NCBI RefSeq assembly: GCF_003339525.1
Contig: NZ_CP031124.1
Span: 1,054,001 to 1,118,000 of the forward strand
DNA from: Ephemeroptericola cinctiostellae
GTDB lineage: Bacteria > Pseudomonadota > Gammaproteobacteria > Burkholderiales > Burkholderiaceae
Reading direction: 5' to 3'
DNA: 64,000 bases
Shown here in pieces: positions 7,800-29,249 of the stretch (position 1 is its first letter; each line of letters starts with the position of its first letter). The notes beneath the pieces are model-generated. The model was given only the letters and a program-made list of their open reading frames with translations, made no database searches and was not told where the DNA came from. Both the position numbers and the translations under genes were made by a program.

Positions 7800-8915
7800 A
7801 TGGGTCATCATACCATGTCAGAATTTGAAAAAAGTACTGAAGAAATCACTTTCACGGTTGAAAATCATGTGGGTGTTGTGACGCTGCATCGCCCGACAGC
7901 ATTGAATGCGTTGTCTTTTCAAATGATTTGTGCCATGCGTCGGCAATTGCTGGCTTGGCAGACCGATGATCGCATCGCTTGGGTTTTGGTGCGCAGCGAT
8001 TCGCCGCGTGCCTTTTGTGCAGGTGGTGATGTGCGTGCATTGTATGAAATGGCCGATGATTTACTCGCCTGTGAAACGTACTTTATCGAAGAGTATCGCC
8101 TCAATCACCTTACACACTTTTATACCAAGCCGTACGTTGCCTTGATGGATGGCATCGTCATGGGGGGAGGGATGGGCATAGCGCAAGGTGCGGGTTTGCG
8201 CATTGTGTCTGAAAATTCACGCCTCGCGATGCCTGAAACAGCGATTGGCATGGTACCTGATGTGGGTGGTTCATATTTCCTTTCACGCACGCATGACGAT
8301 CCCGCCATTGGTCGTTACCTTGCATTGACAGGCACGATCATAAACGCGACAGACGCATGCCATTGGCGATTGGCAGATGCCATGGTGGCGCAGTCTGTTT
8401 GGCCGCATTTGACTCAGGCATTGATTGATTGTGTTGACCCGACATGGGCGGGCTTACGTGCCGTAACTGAATCATTTGCTCGTGGTGATCTGTACCCTGC
8501 TTTTGAGCCCATGAGTGCGTTTGAATCTTTGATTTTAGAAGTATTTGATGAACAATACGATCTCGCTGAAATCACTGCACGCTTGCGGCACCTCTCGACA
8601 GAGGAAAGTACAAATGGCCGTTGGGCAGCCAATGCCTTGGCTCAGGTCAGTTACAACAGCCCGATTGCCATGCGTTTGGCATTACACAATCAACACTTGG
8701 GTCGTGCGATGTCTCTGGCAGACTGTTTGCGTTTGGAATTCAACTGCATCTCCAATCTCTTGCGTCTGGGCGAGGCCCCTGAAGGCATTCGCGCCAAAAT
8801 TGTGGACAAAGATGGTGGGCCAAACTGGCATGTGACTGATGTGGAGCAGACTTTTGAACAACTTAAAACAGCCCCTTACCCTGTTAACCAGCATCCATTG
8901 TTTGAATTGAATTGA
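7800..8915 (+). CDS. Enoyl-CoA hydratase/isomerase family, 3-hydroxyisobutyryl-CoA hydrolase type
   Basis: This is a crotonase-fold protein of the HIBCH subgroup, which hydrolyses 3-hydroxyisobutyryl-CoA in valine breakdown. At 371 residues it is longer than a plain enoyl-CoA hydratase. Key segments are FCAGGDVRALYEM, DGIVMGGGMGIAQGAG (oxyanion hole), and RLAMPETAIGMVPDVGGSYF with the Glu and Asp expected in HIBCH. The start may be the ATG at 7800 or the one at 7815 (MSEFEKSTEE); both have G-rich sequence upstream. No other branched-chain degradation gene adjoins it, so the exact substrate is inferred from family only. Confidence 0.82.
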   Translation: MGHHTMSEFEKSTEEITFTVENHVGVVTLHRPTALNALSFQMICAMRRQLLAWQTDDRIAWVLVRSDSPRAFCAGGDVRALYEMADDLLACETYFIEEYRLNHLTHFYTKPYVALMDGIVMGGGMGIAQGAGLRIVSENSRLAMPETAIGMVPDVGGSYFLSRTHDDPAIGRYLALTGTIINATDACHWRLADAMVAQSVWPHLTQALIDCVDPTWAGLRAVTESFARGDLYPAFEPMSAFESLILEVFDEQYDLAEITARLRHLSTEESTNGRWAANALAQVSYNSPIAMRLALHNQHLGRAMSLADCLRLEFNCISNLLRLGEAPEGIRAKIVDKDGGPNWHVTDVEQTFEQLKTAPYPVNQHPLFELN

Positions 8916-8954
8916 GGCGAACTCACCGTGCCAGAGACTTGTTGGCTTTGCACT

Positions 8955-8983
8955 TTGTGTTTACCCGCCCGTGGTGGTATAAT
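8955..8983 (+). promoter_or_regulatory. Predicted sigma-70 promoter of the thrS operon
   Basis: TTGTGT (8955-8960) and a perfect TATAAT (8978-8983) are separated by 17 bases. The promoter lies just after the hydrolase gene and ~50 bases before the leader peptide described next. Confidence 0.7.
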
Positions 8984-9034
8984 ATCGCCTTAACATCAAA
9001 TCGCAGTTGCGCTGCTGTTTGGATACACTCTTTT

Positions 9035-9103
9035 ATGATTGGCAAGACGATGGCTTTTGTTTCATTTGACACCACAACCACCACGCACAAGCTTGCGCGG
9101 TGA
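9035..9103 (+). CDS. Threonine-rich leader peptide of thrS
   Basis: This is a 22-codon ORF starting ATG at 9035 and ending TGA at 9101-9103. It encodes MIGKTMAFVSFDTTTTTHKL followed by AR. Five consecutive Thr codons (ACC ACA ACC ACC ACG) occupy 9071-9085. GGA at about 9021 is a weak ribosome site; a second in-frame ATG at 9050 is an alternative start. It lies between a strong promoter and an attenuator-like pair of hairpins upstream of threonyl-tRNA synthetase. The likely role is to make the ribosome stall when charged tRNA-Thr is scarce. No function of the peptide itself is implied. Confidence 0.72.
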   Translation: MIGKTMAFVSFDTTTTTHKLAR

Positions 9104-9154
9104 GCCGTCATTGGTGTTTGAAACAATGCAGCTCACTTCAAGTGGGCTTTTTTG
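9098..9154 (+). promoter_or_regulatory. Transcription attenuator of thrS (antiterminator/terminator switch)
   Basis: The terminator is AGCTCAC (9130-9136), loop TTCAA, GTGGGCT (9142-9148), running into six T's (9148-9153). The competing antiterminator pairs GTGAGC (9100-9105) with GCTCAC (9131-9136) and CATTG (9109-9113) with CAATG (9124-9128). Both structures use 9131-9136 and so exclude each other. The 5' arm of the antiterminator overlaps the stop codon of the Thr-rich leader. A ribosome finishing the leader masks it, so the terminator forms. A ribosome stalled at the Thr codons leaves it free, so transcription reads through. The pairing is seen directly; the mechanism is inferred from known amino-acid attenuators. 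Confidence 0.72.
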
Positions 9155-9288
9155 CGCTTGATGCAGTCATTTTTTGCTGGTGGACATGGGTGCAATACCG
9201 GTTCTTTGAAATTTCTAATTCAATCATCAAAAAACAATTGAGTTGAATTTACGACTGATTTTTTTGATAACTTTCTTTTAAGGCTTTT

Positions 9289-11196
9289 ATGATCAATATC
9301 ACATTACCAGATGGTTCGGTTCGTAGTTTTGATGCGCCTGTGACGGTGCATGGCGTTGCCGCCAGCATTGGTGCGGGTTTAGCGAAAGCTGCGTTGGCAG
9401 GGTGGGTCAATGGTGAGTTGGTCGATACCTCTTTCTTGATTGAGCATGATTCGAGTTTGGCGATTGTCACGGATAAGGATGCCGATGGCGTTGATGTGAT
9501 CCGTCATTCAACGGCGCATTTGTTGGCCTATGCTGTTAAAACATTGTTTCCTGATGCTCAAGTCACCATTGGTCCTGTGATTGACAATGGTTTTTATTAC
9601 GATTTTGCTTACAAACGCCCATTCACCCCTGATGATTTGGTTGCGATTGAAGCCAAAATGAGTGAGTTGGCGAAAAAAGATGAACCTGTGACACGTGAAA
9701 TCTGGCGCCGCGATGATGCGGTTGAGTTTTTCAAAGCGCAAGGCGAGGATTATAAAGCAGAAATTATCAGCAGCATTCCAGCCGATCAAAACATCAGTTT
9801 GTATCGTGAAGGTGACTTTATCGATTTGTGTCGGGGGCCGCATGTGCCGTCAACAGGCAAGCTCAAAGTGTTTAAGCTCATGAAAGTGGCGGGTGCATAC
9901 TGGCGCGGTGATTCAAACAACGAAATGCTTCAGCGCATTTACGGCACGGCATGGGCAAAAAAAGAAGATCAAGCGCAATATTTGCACATGCTTGAAGAGG
10001 CTGAAAAACGTGATCACCGCAAACTGGGCAAAGCATTGGACTTGTTCCACATGCAAGATGAGGCGCCTGGTTTGGTGTTTTGGCATGCCAAAGGTTGGAC
10101 GATTTGGCAAGAGGTTGAGCAGTACATGCGCCGTGTGTACCGTGAAAATGGCTACCAAGAAGTCAAAGGTCCTCAAATCCTTGACCGCACGTTGTGGGAA
10201 AAAACGGGGCATTGGGACAATTACAAAGACAATATGTTCACAACGGAATCTGAAAATCGCAGCTATGCGCTCAAACCGATGAATTGTCCGGGTCATATTC
10301 AGATTTATAACACAGGTTTACACAGTTACCGCGATTTGCCTTTGCGCTACGGTGAGTTTGGTCAATGCCACCGCAACGAAAGCTCGGGCGCATTGCACGG
10401 CATCATGCGTGTGCGTGGTTTCACACAAGATGATGGTCATATTTTCTGCACGGAAGACCAAATTCAAGCCGAAGTTTCAGCATTCAATGCATTGACGCGT
10501 AAAGTCTATGATGACTTTGGTTTCCATAATGTGGCAGTCAAATTGGCTTTGCGTCCCGACAACCGCATTGGCTCGGACGAGGCTTGGGATAAAACCGAAA
10601 ATGCCATGCGCGAAGCCATTCGTGCTTCAGGTGTAGAATGGGAAGAGTTGCCGGGTGAAGGGGCCTTTTATGGTCCTAAAATCGAATACCATTTAAAAGA
10701 TTCGATTGGTCGCTCATGGCAGTGTGGCACCATGCAGGTTGATGCGTTTATGCCTGAGCGCCTTGGTGCAACTTACATCGATGAACATGATCAGCGCAAA
10801 ACCCCCATCATGTTGCACCGTGCCATTGTTGGTTCATTGGAACGTTTTATCGGTATTTTGATTGAGAATCATGCGGGCGCATTACCGACTTGGTTGGCAC
10901 CTGTTCAGGTCGTTATTGCCAATATTTCGCAATTTCAAGCCGAATATGTCGCACAAGTGGCACAAGAGTTGGAAAAACAAGGGCTTAGGGTGCAATTAGA
11001 TTTGCGTAATGAGAAGATAACGTATAAAATTCGCGAGCACAGTTTACAGAAGGTGCCTTATATCTTGGTCGTCGGTGACAAAGAGCGTGATCAACACGCG
11101 GTTGCCGTCCGAGCCCGTGGCAACCAAGACTTGGGCGTGATGGACGTGGATGCGTTTATCGCTCACATCACCGCTGAGGTTGCTGCAAGAAAATAA
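9289..11196 (+). CDS. thrS: Threonyl-tRNA synthetase
   Basis: ThrS charges tRNA-Thr and edits mis-charged Ser. The 635-residue protein is full length. It has an N-terminal TGS domain (1-60), an editing domain with HSTAH and CRGPH motifs, and a class II catalytic core. The core shows motif 2 (GQCHRNE) and motif 3 ([12 protein letters not shown]), and the zinc ligands in MNCPG, DDGHIF and MLHRA. The C-terminal anticodon-binding domain contains [15 protein letters not shown]. The ATG at 9289 follows TTTTAAGG. It heads the conserved thrS-infC-rpmI-rplT-pheS-pheT-ihfA cluster and is preceded by the proposed Thr attenuator. Confidence 0.97.
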
Positions 11197-11357
11197 CGAA
11201 TTTCGCTAAAAAGCCACAATGGTGCTTCATTGTTGTGGTTTAAGCCCGATTTTCCCTAAGTTTTTCGAGGAATTCTCGCGAAAAACTTCAAACTGAATGG
11301 TTGAAAACCAAAAAAAGTAGGTTTTCACTTTTTTTGATAAATTATTGGAGATTTACT

Positions 11358-11888
11358 ATCGCTACGCAAGCAAATAAAATGCAACATCGCATCAACGGTG
11401 AAATCACTGCACGCGAAATTCGCCTGATTGGCGTGGACGGTGAACCCATCGGCATCACCCCAACTCGTGAAGCAATGCGCATGGCAGAGGAAATTGACAC
11501 CGATTTGGTTGAAATTTCCCCCAATGCTGAGCCGCCCGTATGCCGTTTGATGGATTACGGCAAATTCAAGTTTCAAGAGCAAAAGAAAGCCGCTGAGGCT
11601 CGCGCCAAACAAAAAGTCATCCAAATCAAGGAAATTAAGTTCCGTCCGGGTACAGATGAAAATGATTACAACGTCAAGTTGCGTAACATCAAACGTTTCC
11701 TTGAAGATGGCGATAAAGTAAAAATTACTTTGCGCTTCCGTGGTCGTGAAATGGCTCACCAAGAGATTGGTATGCAACAATTGATTCGTGTGCGTGATGA
11801 GTTGGCTGAGATTTCTCAAGTGGAATCAATGCCTAAGCTTGAAGGTCGCCAGATGATCATGTTATTGGCGCCACCACGAAAAAAATAA
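11358..11888 (+). CDS. infC: Translation initiation factor IF-3, AUC start codon
   Basis: IF-3 binds the 30S subunit and enforces correct start codon choice. The ~176-residue protein has the N-domain [16 protein letters not shown] and the C-domain [20 protein letters not shown], and ends MLLAPPRKK. The conserved N-terminus has no ATG, GTG or TTG at the right place. The best start is ATC at 11358, with GGAG at 11347-11350, 7 bases upstream, giving (M)[15 protein letters not shown]. Rare AUU/AUC/AUA starts on infC are a known autoregulation device, because IF-3 discriminates against its own start codon. The alternative TTG at 11301 would add a non-conserved extension. Confidence 0.93.
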
Positions 11889-11932
11889 AATTCATTCGTG
11901 CAAAGTGAAATCGCTTTTGTGCTTGAATTGAC

Positions 11933-12156
11933 TTTTAGATGGGCTGGATTGATCTAAAATGGCTGTGAAATATAGCCTTATCCCTTAGGATGGGGCTCAA
12001 AAATTATTCAAACGCGATGTTGTGGGTTTGAATAAGGCTGAATGAAGCGCGTCAGGCCACGCCATGCGCTGACATTCAAACAAGGTGAACCAGTGGCTCA
12101 GGCTTGAGTTTCATTTGGTTTTTCCTTGATGTTGTGTGGGGTTCCCGCACAGCATC
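11933..12156 (+). promoter_or_regulatory. Structured leader between infC and rpmI
   Basis: This 386-base gap has no gene but is rich in hairpins. TTTTAGAT (11933-11940) pairs with ATCTAAAA (11952-11959). CAAGG (12081-12085) and AACCA (12088-12092) pair with CCTTG (12124-12128) and TGGTT (12116-12120) around a CTCA/TGAG tetraloop stem. Immediately after comes a 13-bp stem, 12128-12140 with 12144-12156, that has a 3-base loop and only two G-U pairs. None has a following T-run. In enterobacteria L20 represses rpmI-rplT through a leader pseudoknot in this place; a similar role here is an inference from position. Confidence 0.45.
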
Positions 12157-12274
12157 TCAAAGTGCATATCAAAAAATAAGTGTCTTTGTTTCTTGATTGC
12201 AAATAATAAGTGAATAGGGTTCCCAAGTGTCTCGTCGTAGAGTCCACCTGTATTCATGTTAAAACGGAGTTGTT

Positions 12275-12472
12275 ATGCCTAAAATGAAGACCAAAAAAAG
12301 CGCGTCAAAACGCTTTGTGGTGCGTCCAGGCGGGACTGTTAAACGCGGTCACGCTTTCAAACGTCATATTTTGACTAAGAAGACCACCAAAACCAAACGC
12401 CAATTGCGTGGTGCGACGAGTGTCTCTGCTGCTGATTTACCAGCAGTGAAGTCTTTGTTACCTTACGCGTAA
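12275..12472 (+). CDS. rpmI: 50S ribosomal protein L35
   Basis: This is a 65-residue basic protein beginning [20 protein letters not shown], with [17 protein letters not shown], the standard L35 sequence. CGGAG lies upstream of the ATG. It is followed 26 bases later by rplT, and the two are probably translationally linked. Confidence 0.97.
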
Positions 12473-12498
12473 CCCCAAACTAATCCAAGGAGTATTAC

Positions 12499-12855
12499 AT
12501 GCCTAGAGTAAAACGTGGGGTCACCGCAAGAGCCCGTCATAAGAAAGTCATCGCCCTCGCAAAAGGTTATCGTGGTCGTCGTAAGAACGTCTATCGTGTC
12601 GCTAAACAAGCGGTCATGAAAGCCGGTCAGTACGCTTACCGTGATCGTCGCAACAAAAAGCGCGTATTCCGTGCTTTGTGGATTGCGCGTATCAATGCAG
12701 CCGCTCGTCAAAACGAAATGACTTACAGCAAATTCATGAATGGCTTGAAAAAAGCATCGATTGAAATTGACCGTAAAGTCCTCGCTGACTTGGCCGTGTT
12801 TGATAAACCAGCCTTTGCAGCGATTGTTGCAAAAGCGAAAGAAGCGTTGGCATAA
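12499..12855 (+). CDS. rplT: 50S ribosomal protein L20
   Basis: This 118-residue basic protein begins [20 protein letters not shown] and contains [17 protein letters not shown] and [14 protein letters not shown]. It is full-length L20, needed early in 50S assembly and, in other bacteria, the translational repressor of its own operon. GGAG lies 8 bases before the ATG. A strong terminator follows. Confidence 0.97.
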
Positions 12856-12878
12856 GTCGTTTTAAAAGCCAAAAAGAT

Positions 12879-12911
12879 CGAGGCAAACCGTCTGGTTTTG
12901 CCTCGTTTTTT
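12879..12911 (+). terminator. Intrinsic terminator after rplT
   Basis: CGAGGCAAACC, loop GTCT, then GGTTTTGCCTCG (one bulged T) runs into six T's. It may be a partial terminator, since pheS follows in the same direction only ~135 bases later. Confidence 0.8.
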
Positions 12912-13047
12912 CTTCAGTCGAGTCTGCGCACCACTGAAATCTCATCAGTCAAACTAAAAATTAAAACGGTGGAGTCACCACAAGGTTTATTTTTTTAAAC
13001 CGCTTTTGGCGTTTTAAAAAAGCAAATCCAACCAAACGAGAATATTC

Positions 13048-14064
13048 ATGAGTGATTTAAACCACATCGTTGACGACGCGCGTGTCGCTTTCGCCAGCGC
13101 CACCCGTCCAGCCGATTTAGAAAATGAAAAAGCCAAGTTTTTGGGCAAAGACGGTGCTTTGACCAAAGAACTGAAAGCATTGGGTGCTTTGCCCGTCGAA
13201 GAGAAAAAAATCCGTGGTGCGGCTGTCAATCAAGTCCGTCAGCAGGTTGAAGCATTGCTGAATGAAGCACGCAATGCCTTGGCTGAAGCCGCCTTGAATC
13301 AAAAACTCGCCACAGAGCAATTGGACGTGACTTTGCCGGGTCGCGGTTTGGCTGCGGGTGGCATTCACCCCGTCACGCGCGTGACACGCCGCGTCGCTGC
13401 AATTTTTCGTTCAATGGGATTTGAAGTGGCCGATGGCCCAGAAATTGAAAATGACTGGTATAACTTCACTTCATTGAACAGCCCTGAGAATCATCCCGCG
13501 CGTTCAATGCAAGATACTTTTTATGTTGAAGACAAAGATGAGCACGGTCGCCCACTGGTTCTGCGCACGCACACCAGCCCGATGCAGGTACGCTACGCAC
13601 GTCAACACACGCCACCGATTAAAGTCATCGCCCCTGGTCGTACCTACCGCGTCGATTCAGATGCCACCCATTCGCCGATGTTTCATCAGGTTGAAGGCTT
13701 GTGGATTGACAAAGCCATTAGTTTTGCTGACCTGAAAGGCGTGTACACCACATTCCTGATGCGTTTTTTTGAAGACGACAACATCCAGCTGCGCTTCCGC
13801 CCCTCGTATTTCCCGTTCACCGAACCGTCGGTTGAAATTGACATGGCGTTTGGTAGCGGGCCGAATGCAGGTAAATGGCTTGAGATTTCAGGCGCAGGGC
13901 AAGTGCACCCGACGGTGATTCGTAATTTTGGCCTCGACCCCGAAGAATACATGGGCTTTGCCTTTGGTTCGGGCTTGGAACGATTGGCGATGTTGCGCTA
14001 TGGCGTGAACGATTTGCGTCTGTTCTTTGAAAATGATTTGCGGTTTTTGGGGCAGTTTAAGTAA
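13048..14064 (+). CDS. pheS: Phenylalanyl-tRNA synthetase alpha subunit
   Basis: PheS is the catalytic subunit of the alpha2-beta2 PheRS. It has 338 residues: an N-terminal coiled coil (about 1-90) that binds tRNA, then the class II core. Conserved segments are [47 protein letters not shown] (motif 2) and [19 protein letters not shown] (motif 3). The ATG at 13048 gives [12 protein letters not shown], a normal start. The stop is followed by an unusually long gap before pheT. Confidence 0.97.
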
Positions 14065-14464
14065 AAAATTATTTTGGTTTTAGATGCGTCTGTTTAGGCC
14101 AGCGGGTGACACTGGTGGTTCAACTCCACTGAAAATTCTATGCTTGACCCTTTTTGTTATTGTATTCGGTTGTTTTAAAAGCTATTTGCAATCAAACATA
14201 ACTGAGTGCGACTGTCACTCAAGAAAGAAAAAAGGTATCAACATGAACAATATTAATCGTCGTGGTTTTAAATTTAAGTTGTTGTTAACAGCAATTTTTG
14301 ATTCTTTACATGGGGTAAGTATTGGAATTTGGCTCGGTGCAGTGCTGCCCTAAGCAGATGCTAGATATAACCAATTCGTATGCGATTAGTAGGTCGCTGA
14401 GATTCGGCACGTCTAAGATTTTCAAGACGTTTTATAACGTCCATTTTATAAATTTGAGAGAAAC
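14065..14464 (+). other. Atypical 400-base spacer between pheS and pheT
   Basis: pheS and pheT usually lie close together, but here they are 400 bases apart. The spacer is more AT-rich than its neighbours. It contains small hairpins, for example GAGTG/CACTC near 14200-14217 and GACGTT-TTAT-AACGTC near 14428-14443, and one short ORF (next entry). No terminator with a clear T-run or insertion-sequence end was found. Confidence 0.5.
14243..14353 (+). CDS. Possible small protein, 36 residues, unknown
   Basis: The ORF starts ATG at 14243 with AAAAGG 6-8 bases upstream and encodes MNNINRRGFKFKLLLTAIFD, continuing SLHGVSIGIWLGAVLP. A basic N-terminus followed by a mostly hydrophobic half could insert in the membrane. 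The same frame is open from an upstream ATG at 14084 but without a ribosome site. I do not recognise the protein. It could be a real small protein or a leader ORF, or chance; only conservation in relatives would tell. Confidence 0.3.
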   Translation: MNNINRRGFKFKLLLTAIFDSLHGVSIGIWLGAVLP

Positions 14465-16882
14465 ATGCAATTTTCAGAACAATGGTTACGCACTTGGGTG
14501 AACCCAAGCATCACGACAGAGCAACTCGCCGACACGCTGACGATGGGTGGTTTGGAGGTGGAAGAATGCCATCCTGCCGCGCCTGCTTTTAGTGGCGTGG
14601 TGGTGGGGCAGATTGTGTCGATGGAGAAGCATCCCGATGCAGATAAGCTCAATGTATGTCAGGTGGATGCTGGCACGGGCGAGTTATTGCAAATCGTGTG
14701 TGGTGCGCCGAATGCTGCGGTGGGGATTAAGATTCCTGCGGCTCTGATTGGCGCTGAGTTGCCGAATGATTTTAAGATTAAAGCGGCGAAGTTGCGCGGT
14801 ATGGCGTCGAGCGGTATGTTGTGTTCGGCACGTGAGTTGGGCATCAATGATGAAGCCTCGGGTTTGATGGAGTTGCCTGCGGACGCGCCTGTCGGTGCGA
14901 GCATTCGTGACTATTTGAATTTGGACGATCACGTGTTCACCATTAAACTCACGCCCAACCGTGCGGATTGTTTGAGTATTCGCGGTGTGGCGCGTGATGT
15001 GGCGGCGATGACGGGTGCGTCTTTGCAGCCGTTTACAGCATCTGCGGTGGCGGCAACGATTGCGGATGAATTGCCGATTCGCATTGATGCGCCTGCTGTG
15101 TGTGGTCGTTTTACGGGGCGCGTGATGACTCATGTCAATGCGGCTGCGCCGACACCGTTGTGGATGGTGCAGCGTTTGGCGCGCGCGGGCGTGCGACCGA
15201 TTTCGGCTTTGGTCGACATCACCAATTATGTGATGCTGCATTTGGGACAACCGATGCATGTGTATGATTTGGATGCAATTCAAGGCACACTGCATGTGCG
15301 TATGGCGCAGGCGGGTGAAAAAATTGAGTTGCTCAATGATCAAACATACGAGATGCAAGACGACGTGCTGGTGATTGCCGATGATTCAGGTGCAATTGGT
15401 ATGGCGGGTGTCATGGGGGGAAATTCAACCAAGGCGGAGTTGCATACGCAAAACATTTTCTTGGAAGCCGCATTTTTTGCGCCTGAGGTGATTCAAGGTA
15501 AATCACGCCGCTTCCGTTTCAGTTCTGATGCGTCACACCGTTTTGAACGCGGGGTTGATTTCATGGGACAAGTGGAGGCCTTGGAGTTTGCCACTCGCTT
15601 AGTGCTTGATGTTTGTGGCGGTCAAATCGGGGCTGTGTCTGAAGTGGTGGGTCAATTGCCGCAGCGCGAACAGTTGAACATGCGCGTGGCGCGTGCGCAA
15701 AAAGTCATTGGTGTGGCGATTCCAGCGGATGACATGGCGCAGTATTTAGGCCGTTTGCAGCTGGATGTGAGCCGTCGCATGGATGATCAACAAGGTGAAA
15801 TCCTCAGCGTGACGGCACCCAGTTATCGTTTTGACATGGCGATTGAAGAGGATTTGATCGAGGAAGTGGTGCGTTTGTTTGGTTACAGTAACATCCCACT
15901 CAAACCGCCTGTGGCGACCCAAACCATGTTGCATGTTCCAGAGTCTGAGCGTCAAGCCGATGCGATTCGTGATGCTTTGGTTGCTTTGGATTACCAAGAA
16001 GTGATTAACTTTAGTTTCGTTGATGAGGCGGTGGAGCGTGATTTTGCGGGTGCAAATGTGCGACCGATTAAATTATTGAACCCAATCGCTTCATCGCTTG
16101 CCGTGATGCGCACGCAGCTGGTTGGTTCTTTGGTTGGGAATTTAAAAACCAATCTTGCACGCAGTGCCAATCGGGTGCGCGTCTTTGAGTTTGCCAAAGT
16201 GTTTCATCGCGATGCGACCGTTCCGGCCTCAGAAAATACAGTACCCAACATTGCCCAACCTTTGATGCTGGCCGGTTTGGCCTATGGTTCTGCCGTACCA
16301 GAACAATGGGCGGGTGCGGATGTTGATGTTGACTTCTATGATGTCAAAGGCGACATTGAACGTCTTTTTGCACCACAAACAGTGCGTTTCGAAGCTTTTG
16401 CACATGTGGCCGCACACCCAGGGCGTTGCGCGCAGTTACTGGTGGACGGGCGACCTGTGGGCTGGTTGGGACAAATGCACCCCCGTTTACAACAAGCATA
16501 TGATCTGCCCAAGGCGCCGATGTTATTTGAAATGGAGGCCGAAGCGGTGTTTGCCCGTCGTGTGCCTGTGGCCACAGATGTCTCAAAACTGCCCATGGTG
16601 ACCCGTGATTTGGCTTTAATTGTGGCACGTGAGGTCAGTGCACAGCACATTTTTGATGCTTTTGTAAAATTTATTGCCTTAGAACCAACGGCTTACATTA
16701 TTCGTGATGTACAATTGTTTGACGTTTATCAGGGTGAGCATGTGGCTGCCACCGAAAAGAGCATGGCCTATCGTATCAATTTGCAAGACATGAGCGCCAC
16801 TTTGCAGGATGCACAGATTGATGCTTTGATGCAAGCGGCGCTTGCGCATTTGCATTCTGAAGTGGGCGCACGATTGAGATAA
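14465..16882 (+). CDS. pheT: Phenylalanyl-tRNA synthetase beta subunit
   Basis: PheT partners PheS and carries the tRNA-binding and Tyr-editing domains. The 805-residue protein is full length. The N-terminal EMAP/OB-type tRNA-binding domain shows VVVGQIVSMEKHPDADKLNV. The B3/B4 editing domain contains ISALVDITNYVMLHLGQPMH. A B5 domain and catalytic-like core follow, and the C-terminal anticodon-binding domain contains KLPMVTRDLALIVAREV. The start at 14465 follows TTTGAGAGAAAC. ihfA follows after 238 bases, in conserved order. Confidence 0.97.
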   Translation: MQFSEQWLRTWVNPSITTEQLADTLTMGGLEVEECHPAAPAFSGVVVGQIVSMEKHPDADKLNVCQVDAGTGELLQIVCGAPNAAVGIKIPAALIGAELPNDFKIKAAKLRGMASSGMLCSARELGINDEASGLMELPADAPVGASIRDYLNLDDHVFTIKLTPNRADCLSIRGVARDVAAMTGASLQPFTASAVAATIADELPIRIDAPAVCGRFTGRVMTHVNAAAPTPLWMVQRLARAGVRPISALVDITNYVMLHLGQPMHVYDLDAIQGTLHVRMAQAGEKIELLNDQTYEMQDDVLVIADDSGAIGMAGVMGGNSTKAELHTQNIFLEAAFFAPEVIQGKSRRFRFSSDASHRFERGVDFMGQVEALEFATRLVLDVCGGQIGAVSEVVGQLPQREQLNMRVARAQKVIGVAIPADDMAQYLGRLQLDVSRRMDDQQGEILSVTAPSYRFDMAIEEDLIEEVVRLFGYSNIPLKPPVATQTMLHVPESERQADAIRDALVALDYQEVINFSFVDEAVERDFAGANVRPIKLLNPIASSLAVMRTQLVGSLVGNLKTNLARSANRVRVFEFAKVFHRDATVPASENTVPNIAQPLMLAGLAYGSAVPEQWAGADVDVDFYDVKGDIERLFAPQTVRFEAFAHVAAHPGRCAQLLVDGRPVGWLGQMHPRLQQAYDLPKAPMLFEMEAEAVFARRVPVATDVSKLPMVTRDLALIVAREVSAQHIFDAFVKFIALEPTAYIIRDVQLFDVYQGEHVAATEKSMAYRINLQDMSATLQDAQIDALMQAALAHLHSEVGARLR

Positions 16883-28828: not shown

Positions 28829-28904
28829 GGGTGTTTAGCTCAGTTGGTAGAGCGGCGCCCTTACAAGGCGTAGGTCGGGAGTTCGAGCCTCTCAACACCC
28901 ACCA
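28829..28904 (+). tRNA. tRNA-Val (anticodon TAC), copy 1
   Basis: This 76-base cloverleaf begins GGGTGTTTAGCTC and has anticodon loop CTTACAA, T-loop TTCGAGC, acceptor AACACCC and an encoded CCA end. It is identical to the copy at 29068. Confidence 0.96.
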
Positions 28905-28922
28905 GTCTTAAAAAAGCAGTTT

Positions 28923-28999
28923 GGAGTGGTAGTTCAGTTGGTTAGAATACCGGCCTGTCACGCCGGGGGTCGCGGGTTCGAGCCCCGTCCGCTCCGCCA
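28923..28999 (+). tRNA. tRNA-Asp (anticodon GTC), copy 1
   Basis: This 77-base cloverleaf begins GGAGTGGTAGTTCAG and has anticodon loop CTGTCAC, T-loop TTCGAGC, and an encoded CCA. It is identical to the copy at 29173. Confidence 0.96.
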
Positions 29000-29067
29000 A
29001 AAAATAGAACATGATTTTCGTGTTCGTTTCCATGTGATATTGGAATGTGATAAGCAAGTGAAAATGC

Positions 29068-29143
29068 GGGTGTTTAGCTCAGTTGGTAGAGCGGCGCCCT
29101 TACAAGGCGTAGGTCGGGAGTTCGAGCCTCTCAACACCCACCA
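29068..29143 (+). tRNA. tRNA-Val (anticodon TAC), copy 2
   Basis: The mature sequence is the same as at 28829-28904, while the flanking spacers differ. Confidence 0.96.
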
Positions 29144-29172
29144 CGCATTTTTATGAGCAAGAAGTATATGTT

Positions 29173-29249
29173 GGAGTGGTAGTTCAGTTGGTTAGAATAC
29201 CGGCCTGTCACGCCGGGGGTCGCGGGTTCGAGCCCCGTCCGCTCCGCCA
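29173..29249 (+). tRNA. tRNA-Asp (anticodon GTC), copy 2
   Basis: The mature sequence is the same as at 28923-28999. It is the last tRNA of the Val-Asp-Val-Asp array, followed by a terminator. Confidence 0.96.

Follow-up and report, generated by a model that had tools for sequence, protein, structure and literature searches.

Sequence evidence for a probable threonine-codon leader peptide attenuator ahead of thrS in Ephemeroptericola cinctiostellae and other Burkholderiales

The DNA ahead of thrS in Ephemeroptericola cinctiostellae very probably encodes a ribosome-mediated transcription attenuator that senses the charging of tRNA-Thr and controls thrS, perhaps together with infC-rpmI-rplT-pheST. 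The element lies in a stretch of 64,000 nucleotides (contig NZ_CP031124.1, positions 1,054,001 to 1,118,000 of the forward strand), here called the window, to which the coordinates below refer. Sequence and computation together establish its anatomy, its spacing, its mutually exclusive folds, its conservation, the coordination between arms 2 and 3 and its amino-acid specificity. A preliminary description of this DNA had read the region as a Thr-leader attenuator for thrS, and this reading is supported by conservation within the genus and by complementary arms across clades. Three features go beyond that description, i.e. a protector hairpin over the Thr codons, a link to tRNA-Val in relatives and the breadth of the distribution.

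Architecture of the thrS leader region

The features of the region and of its surroundings are:

7800-8915, enoyl-CoA hydratase family gene (Pfam ECH_2), upstream flank of the leader region
8955..8983, + strand, probable leader promoter with the -35 hexamer TTGTGT at 8955-8960, a 17-nt spacer and TATAAT at 8978-8983
9035..9103, + strand, leader peptide reading frame of 22 codons, MIGKTMAFVSFDTTTTTHKLAR, with ATG at 9035 and the stop codon TGA at 9101-9103
9071..9085, + strand, control codons, five Thr codons (ACC ACA ACC ACC ACG) read from the sequence
9079..9102, + strand, protector hairpin 1:2 from folding, arms 9079-9087 and 9094-9102
9099..9137, + strand, antiterminator hairpin 2:3 from folding, outer stem 9099-9105/9131-9137 and inner stem 9109-9113/9124-9128
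9130..9153, + strand, intrinsic terminator 3:4 predicted from sequence, stem 9130-9137/9141-9148 and T run to 9153
9289..11196, + strand, thrS, threonyl-tRNA synthetase of 635 aa (Pfam TGS, tRNA_SAD, tRNA-synt_2b and HGTP_anticodon)
11358..16882, + strand, downstream genes infC, rpmI, rplT, pheS and pheT, on the same strand as thrS
from 11358, + strand, infC (Pfam), probable AUC start
12275-12472, + strand, probable rpmI, named from the sequence of its reading frame and the E. coli gene order
12499-12855, + strand, presumably rplT, named in the same way
13048-14064, + strand, pheS (Pfam)
14465-16882, + strand, pheT (Pfam)

Leader, antiterminator and T-run terminator stand in the order described ahead of thrS, which is the only gene in the genome with a full-length ThrS match, and the 22-codon leader with five consecutive Thr codons was recovered as reported. 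A second in-frame ATG at 9050 would give a peptide of 17 aa; by eye, no clear Shine-Dalgarno site was seen ahead of the ATG at 9035, and the Thr codons show, likewise by eye, synonymous differences among relatives. The protector hairpin overlaps the last Thr codons and the leader stop codon. Arm 2 (GGTGAGC, 9099-9105) contains the stop codon, as had been claimed, and arm 3 (GCTCACT, 9131-9137) lies within the 5' arm of the terminator hairpin at 9130-9148. Both of the alternative pairings proposed for 9131-9136 are present, the one with 9100-9105 being Watson-Crick throughout and the one with 9142-9147 including one T-G pair. The last Thr codon starts 16 nt ahead of arm 2 in the window, and the distance from its first base to arm 2 is 10, 13, 16, 16, 16 and 18 nt in the six genomes of the genus, which agrees with the spacing that had been put forward for ribosome-mediated control. 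In five of these six genomes arm 2 includes the leader stop codon, and in L010 the codon stands directly ahead of the arm. The region thus contains a leader reading frame with Thr codons, a terminator sequence and an exclusive antiterminator at the spacing of a leader-peptide attenuator.

The promoter proposal fared less uniformly. TATAAT and the 17-nt spacer were found where they had been placed, and TGG at 8975-8977 precedes TATAAT to form the extended -10 element TGGTATAAT at 8975-8983, but the -35 hexamer has only three of six consensus bases and the element at 8955-8983 is missing from the list of a promoter scanner. From its sequence, and given the weak -35 box, this is plausibly a promoter that is not strong. 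The closest congener, L006, shares the element; in the three congeners with a tRNA gene in front, a TATAAT, TACAAT or TATACT hexamer is instead seen, by eye, before tRNA-Val.

Judging from gene order and strand, infC-rpmI-rplT-pheST are perhaps co-transcribed with thrS. The probable start codon of infC is an AUC at 11358 with TGGAG ahead of it (11346-11360). E. coli infC has a rare AUU start codon and, by analogy, the rare AUC codon would fit self-control by IF3. Elsewhere in the window, at 28829-29246, four tRNA genes have alternating scores of 71.3, 65.9, 71.3 and 65.9, as if a pair had been duplicated in tandem.

Proposed switch and predicted folds

We suggest that the element would work as follows: (i) when Thr-tRNA is plentiful, the ribosome would pass the five Thr codons, reach the stop codon and cover arm 2, and with arm 2 covered arms 3 and 4 would pair and transcription would stop at ~9153; (ii) when Thr-tRNA is scarce, the ribosome would pause on the Thr codons, leaving arm 2 just beyond its front edge, and the free arm 2 would pair with arm 3, so that the terminator would be blocked and thrS read; and (iii) when the leader is not translated, the 1:2 hairpin would occupy arm 2 and termination would occur by default. 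We infer that the leader is translated, that polymerase terminates at ~9153, that threonine starvation releases this termination and that the effect reaches downstream genes.

In folding calculations with a ribosome placed on the leader, we assumed a distance of 14 nt between the first base in the A site and the downstream front edge. For the window sequence, the antiterminator is the best fold when the A site holds the last Thr codon (-16.1 kcal/mol), and the terminator is the best fold when it holds the stop codon (-9.7 kcal/mol). All six genomes of the genus yield the terminator in the stop-codon state and the 2:3 hairpin when the nascent RNA is cut off ahead of arm 4; in L007, where the spacing of 10 nt between Thr codon and arm 2 is tight, the 2:3 hairpin is full with the front edge at 11 nt and partial at 14 nt. 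At equilibrium, the stalled state folds into the terminator in four of the six genomes (L007-L010) and, therefore, the switch must be kinetic in those four. E. coli thrL and pheM, treated in the same way, likewise have the terminator as equilibrium fold of the stalled state.

The combination of Thr run, leader and terminator is unusual and the terminator alone is not. A stretch of 5 kb contains 14 terminator-like sites as compared to 6.1 expected from shuffles and, therefore, the terminator at 9130-9153 is unremarkable by itself. The pattern (ACN)5 has a single copy in the window (0.18 expected; at least one copy in 16 of 100 shuffles) and eight copies in the 2.72-Mb genome, in which the reversed pattern occurs 194 times. 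Four of the eight copies lie in the Thr frame of an ATG reading frame of 8-60 codons, and the thrS copy is the only one of these four with a terminator within 100 nt. The fold of 8990-9155 has a z of -2.5 relative to shuffles, 3 of 200 of which were equally good. Finally, an ATG reading frame with at least three Thr in six codons is found in 46 of 86 thrS upstream regions (the six of the genus and the 80 closest of 583), compared to one to three such frames in each of ten rounds of dinucleotide shuffling of the same regions, a comparison in which no terminator was required.

Conservation and distribution of the leader

The genus set comprised six genomes including the window's own, one of them 85% complete. 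The conservation of the Thr codons in close relatives had been named as a check on the attenuator reading, and a layout with a Thr-rich leader and alternative pairing is kept in all six genomes. The run has five consecutive Thr codons in three of them and seven in L009, and is interrupted in L007 and L010. GGTGAGC and GCTCAC are invariant in all six genomes at a mean column identity of 63%, and six of the seven pairs in the outer stem of the antiterminator are invariant. Because arms 2 and 3 hardly vary in the genus, a pair count over the six genomes did not support 2:3 by covariation (184 of 500 shuffles reached its score). In the same alignment, two of the eight terminator pairs changed on both sides (39 of 500 shuffles reached the score), and in the protector hairpin, in which 83% of cells are paired, two of eight pairs did so (23 of 500 shuffles). 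Coming from six related sequences, these two-sided changes lend the two stems weak support.

Given the near-invariance of arms 2 and 3 within the genus, a swap test across clades was adopted. In the genus, GGTGAGC is matched by GCTCACC or GCTCACT; Massilia, Undibacterium and Janthinobacterium have GCTAGTCG and CGGCTAGT, Paraburkholderia and Burkholderia have TCGAGG and CCTCGA, and Roseateles has GCCGCG and CGCGGC. Different but mutually complementary arms thus recur in other Burkholderiales clades, across which the preliminary description had suggested a check for covariation. For 21 cluster representatives, the native 2/3 duplex was at -13.8 kcal/mol compared to -11.0 kcal/mol for swapped arms (p 5e-5); when the set was enlarged to 35 representatives and the arm-2 window shortened, the values were -11.7 and -10.1 kcal/mol (p 1.2e-4), and the difference persisted when the own genus was left out of the larger set (n = 32, p 0.0014). 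This larger set and the sliding profile described below were drawn from 63 leaders (45 + 18), which include those from the closest 80 of 583 loci. The native duplex beats the swapped mean in 35 of 44 loci. The nine loci in which it does not include the window itself (native -11.5 versus a swapped mean of -11.9), four Cupriavidus loci, Roseateles L051 and L085. Along the leader, complementarity to arm 3 peaks in windows whose centres fall 0-15 nt beyond the first base of the stop codon (mean -9.4 to -10.8 kcal/mol) and is -6.2 to -8.9 kcal/mol elsewhere (12-35 loci per point). This peak is the region that a ribosome on the leader stop codon would cover.

To follow the leader beyond the genus, we used a detector that masked tRNA genes and accepted a leader only if a terminator followed no more than 100 nt from its stop codon. 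Ahead of thrS, a Thr leader with terminator was found in 45 of 86 loci, i.e. in all six of the genus and in 39 of the 80 named loci, which are those closest in ThrS among 583 confirmed; the next amino acid by the same detector was Arg with nine. As these 80 loci were selected for closeness in ThrS, 45 of 86 overstates the frequency, and a fairer figure is given by an order-wide sample with 18 of 98 regions (next amino acid Ala, four). With at least four Thr in six codons, the counts are 28 of the same 86 loci (next amino acid three) and 10 of the 98 regions (next amino acid one). By this strict definition, 41 of the 86 loci and 80 of the 98 regions lack the leader with at least three Thr in six codons. 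The order sample excludes the own genome and includes two second copies of thrS; G094, where the N-terminus is incomplete, and a G065 fragment were left out. In the order and class samples, thrS starts were set by a simple rule instead of by annotation. In other orders of the class, no Thr leader was found before thrS in 31 regions, a sample of 31 of 86 non-own places that are mostly those closest in ThrS, not random, and one of which had 126 usable bases. A tally of the order sample made without asking for a terminator (Val 41, Arg 32 and Thr 30 of 98) was distorted by tRNA sequence and is superseded by the tRNA-masked count.

As a control, the detector found E. coli thrL before thrA and pheM before pheS, and it found no Thr leader in the DNA upstream of E. 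coli thrS; thus, it does not find Thr leaders everywhere. Carriers include Massilia, Undibacterium, Janthinobacterium, Cupriavidus, Ralstonia, Paraburkholderia, Bordetella, Achromobacter, Roseateles and Acidovorax. The leader peptide contains MTPRTTT or MTPRTLT in many of the named carriers; outside the Thr run its sequence differs by clade, and its length is variable.

The sequence ATGACACCGCGAAC, which encodes MTPRT, is almost fully conserved at the DNA level in many Burkholderiales, among them several of L016-L090. It is also kept where no Thr run follows (L076 and L084), and in L079 the start codon is changed to ATA. Coding for threonine does not by itself explain this conservation, and one guess is that a protector pairing of CGA-A-CTA with TAGTCG may be the reason.

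Alternative explanations and known systems

In L008, L009 and L010, the distance from the end of a tRNA-Val(GAC) gene to the leader ATG is 10, 17 and 10 nt, and a same-strand tRNA-Val gene lies within 350 nt of 26 of the 63 Thr leaders, a set that includes those from the closest 80 of 583 loci, ending 2 to 92 nt ahead of the ATG in these 26. Its position directly ahead of the leader in these three congeners, together with the 26 cases, speaks for a reading in which the hairpin does no more than terminate an upstream tRNA-Val gene at its 3' end, or is left over from such a terminator, with the Thr codons incidental. In three genomes, i.e. the window genome (G000:C1:2632196-2632272), G001:C15 and G005:C11, tRNA-Val(GAC) lies apart from thrS. 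By eye, the detached gene has a plain hairpin behind it and no Thr leader, whereas leader and terminator stay with thrS behind a separate TATAAT, and this argues against the hairpin being merely the end of a tRNA gene. Moreover, the terminator arm lies a median of 61 nt and at minimum 17 nt from the thrS start and is within 35 nt of it in 16 of 63 cases, leaving little room for a separate thrS promoter. As this view also leaves the Thr specificity and the 2:3 coordination unexplained, we regard it as very improbable. It is an evenly balanced proposition that a betaproteobacterial tRNA-Val(GAC) terminator became a threonine-charging switch, such that one promoter would provide tRNA-Val constitutively and, when Thr-tRNA is short, the same transcript would continue into thrS-infC-rpmI-rplT-pheST, with the window's genus in the midst of a split between leader plus thrS and the tRNA gene. 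If true, an operon for a translation factor and ribosomal proteins would be tied to threonine charging.

The remaining alternatives concern how the leader RNA acts. Translational autorepression by ThrRS is established for E. coli thrS and, given the extensive hairpins in the leader described here, ThrRS might repress its own mRNA via a tRNA-like hairpin. An operator of this type would have no need for a recurring Thr run, an arm at the stop codon or a T-run terminator, and the E. coli thrS upstream DNA lacked such a leader in the same scan; we consider this mode highly unlikely as the explanation of the leader; it may act as an additional layer. A T-box riboswitch that reads uncharged tRNA-Thr directly would follow the logic that Firmicutes use on the same target gene. 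A coding Thr run is not known to be part of a T-box, and Rfam at gathering level returned no leader or T-box family in the window and ten relatives (the matches were tRNAs and one marginal antisense RNA). A scan of 8900-9300 with E up to 5 gave three weak matches, without Thr_leader or T-box among them; Trp_leader was the only leader family (E 2.5, 15 bits versus a cut-off of 41). The probability of a T-box is therefore close to nil. A trans-acting role after termination has been proposed for rhizobial trpL, and the product here could similarly act as a peptide regulator or, in trans, as a short RNA, with attenuation secondary. Termination would free a short RNA of an estimated ~165 nt if transcription starts near 8990, and ATGACACCGCGAAC is kept more closely than coding for threonine requires in many Burkholderiales. 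Against this, the peptide outside the Thr run varies by clade in sequence and in length, and arms 2 and 3 change together in cis; there is little chance that this reading is correct.

Among known systems, the attenuator proposed here is close in layout to E. coli pheM-pheST, in which a leader rich in cognate codons precedes an aminoacyl-tRNA synthetase operon and which the same detector recovers. The pheM-pheST mechanism consists of competing hairpins and a terminator. In contrast to the window, pheM has Phe codons and controls pheST inside the same gene cluster, whereas Thr codons precede thrS in the window. E. coli thrL, the thrABC leader (Thr_leader in Rfam), combines a Thr-rich leader peptide with a terminator as in the window; unlike the leader in the window, it precedes the biosynthesis gene thrA and its Thr codons are mixed with Ile codons. 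The E. coli thrS operator acts on the same gene by another principle, i.e. on translation through ThrRS.

In Streptomyces lividans, a putative Thr leader peptide, thrL, has been described before thrS (PMC8079986). By its authors' description, it differs from the leader in the window in having two Thr codons, a leaderless start, one hairpin and no uridine-rich sequence (PMC8079986). In a survey of premature terminators, E. coli ThrRS appears as a self-regulating RNA-binding protein (PMC2965389), and a survey of Actinobacteria lists attenuators at Streptomyces trpS and leuS and compares them with gamma-proteobacterial pheST (PMC1262725). The preliminary description knew of no Thr-leader attenuator on thrS in this group; in the literature examined, the putative leader peptide in S. 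lividans (PMC8079986) was the only one seen before thrS. Attenuation on aminoacyl-tRNA operons was surveyed in 2010, and thrS of Betaproteobacteria may already be among the cases listed there.

If the attenuator reading is correct, a widespread bacterial group would gain a definite mode of thrS control, unlike the textbook cases of E. coli and Firmicutes. It would show that one synthetase gene can be under the control of protein binding, a T-box or a leader peptide depending on lineage. In relatives, genes for a tRNA, a synthetase and translation factors may be linked in one switchable transcript. The leader reading frame and the terminator are targets for annotation in many Burkholderiales genomes.

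A further Thr leader, unrelated to the one described here, precedes a second thrS gene in two genomes of one genus (L199, G037:C5 near 16782; L203, G082:C13 near 18959). It has six consecutive Thr codons, ends in STAT and lacks a T run. In the predicted folds, a ribosome stalled at Thr leaves a hairpin of the GAGGTAGCC/GGCTGCCTC type complete, and once the ribosome sits at the stop codon, CTCC is released and pairs with GGAG ahead of the start codon. These folds suggest that the leader of the second thrS would be a translational version of the switch, possibly an independent invention on the same gene.
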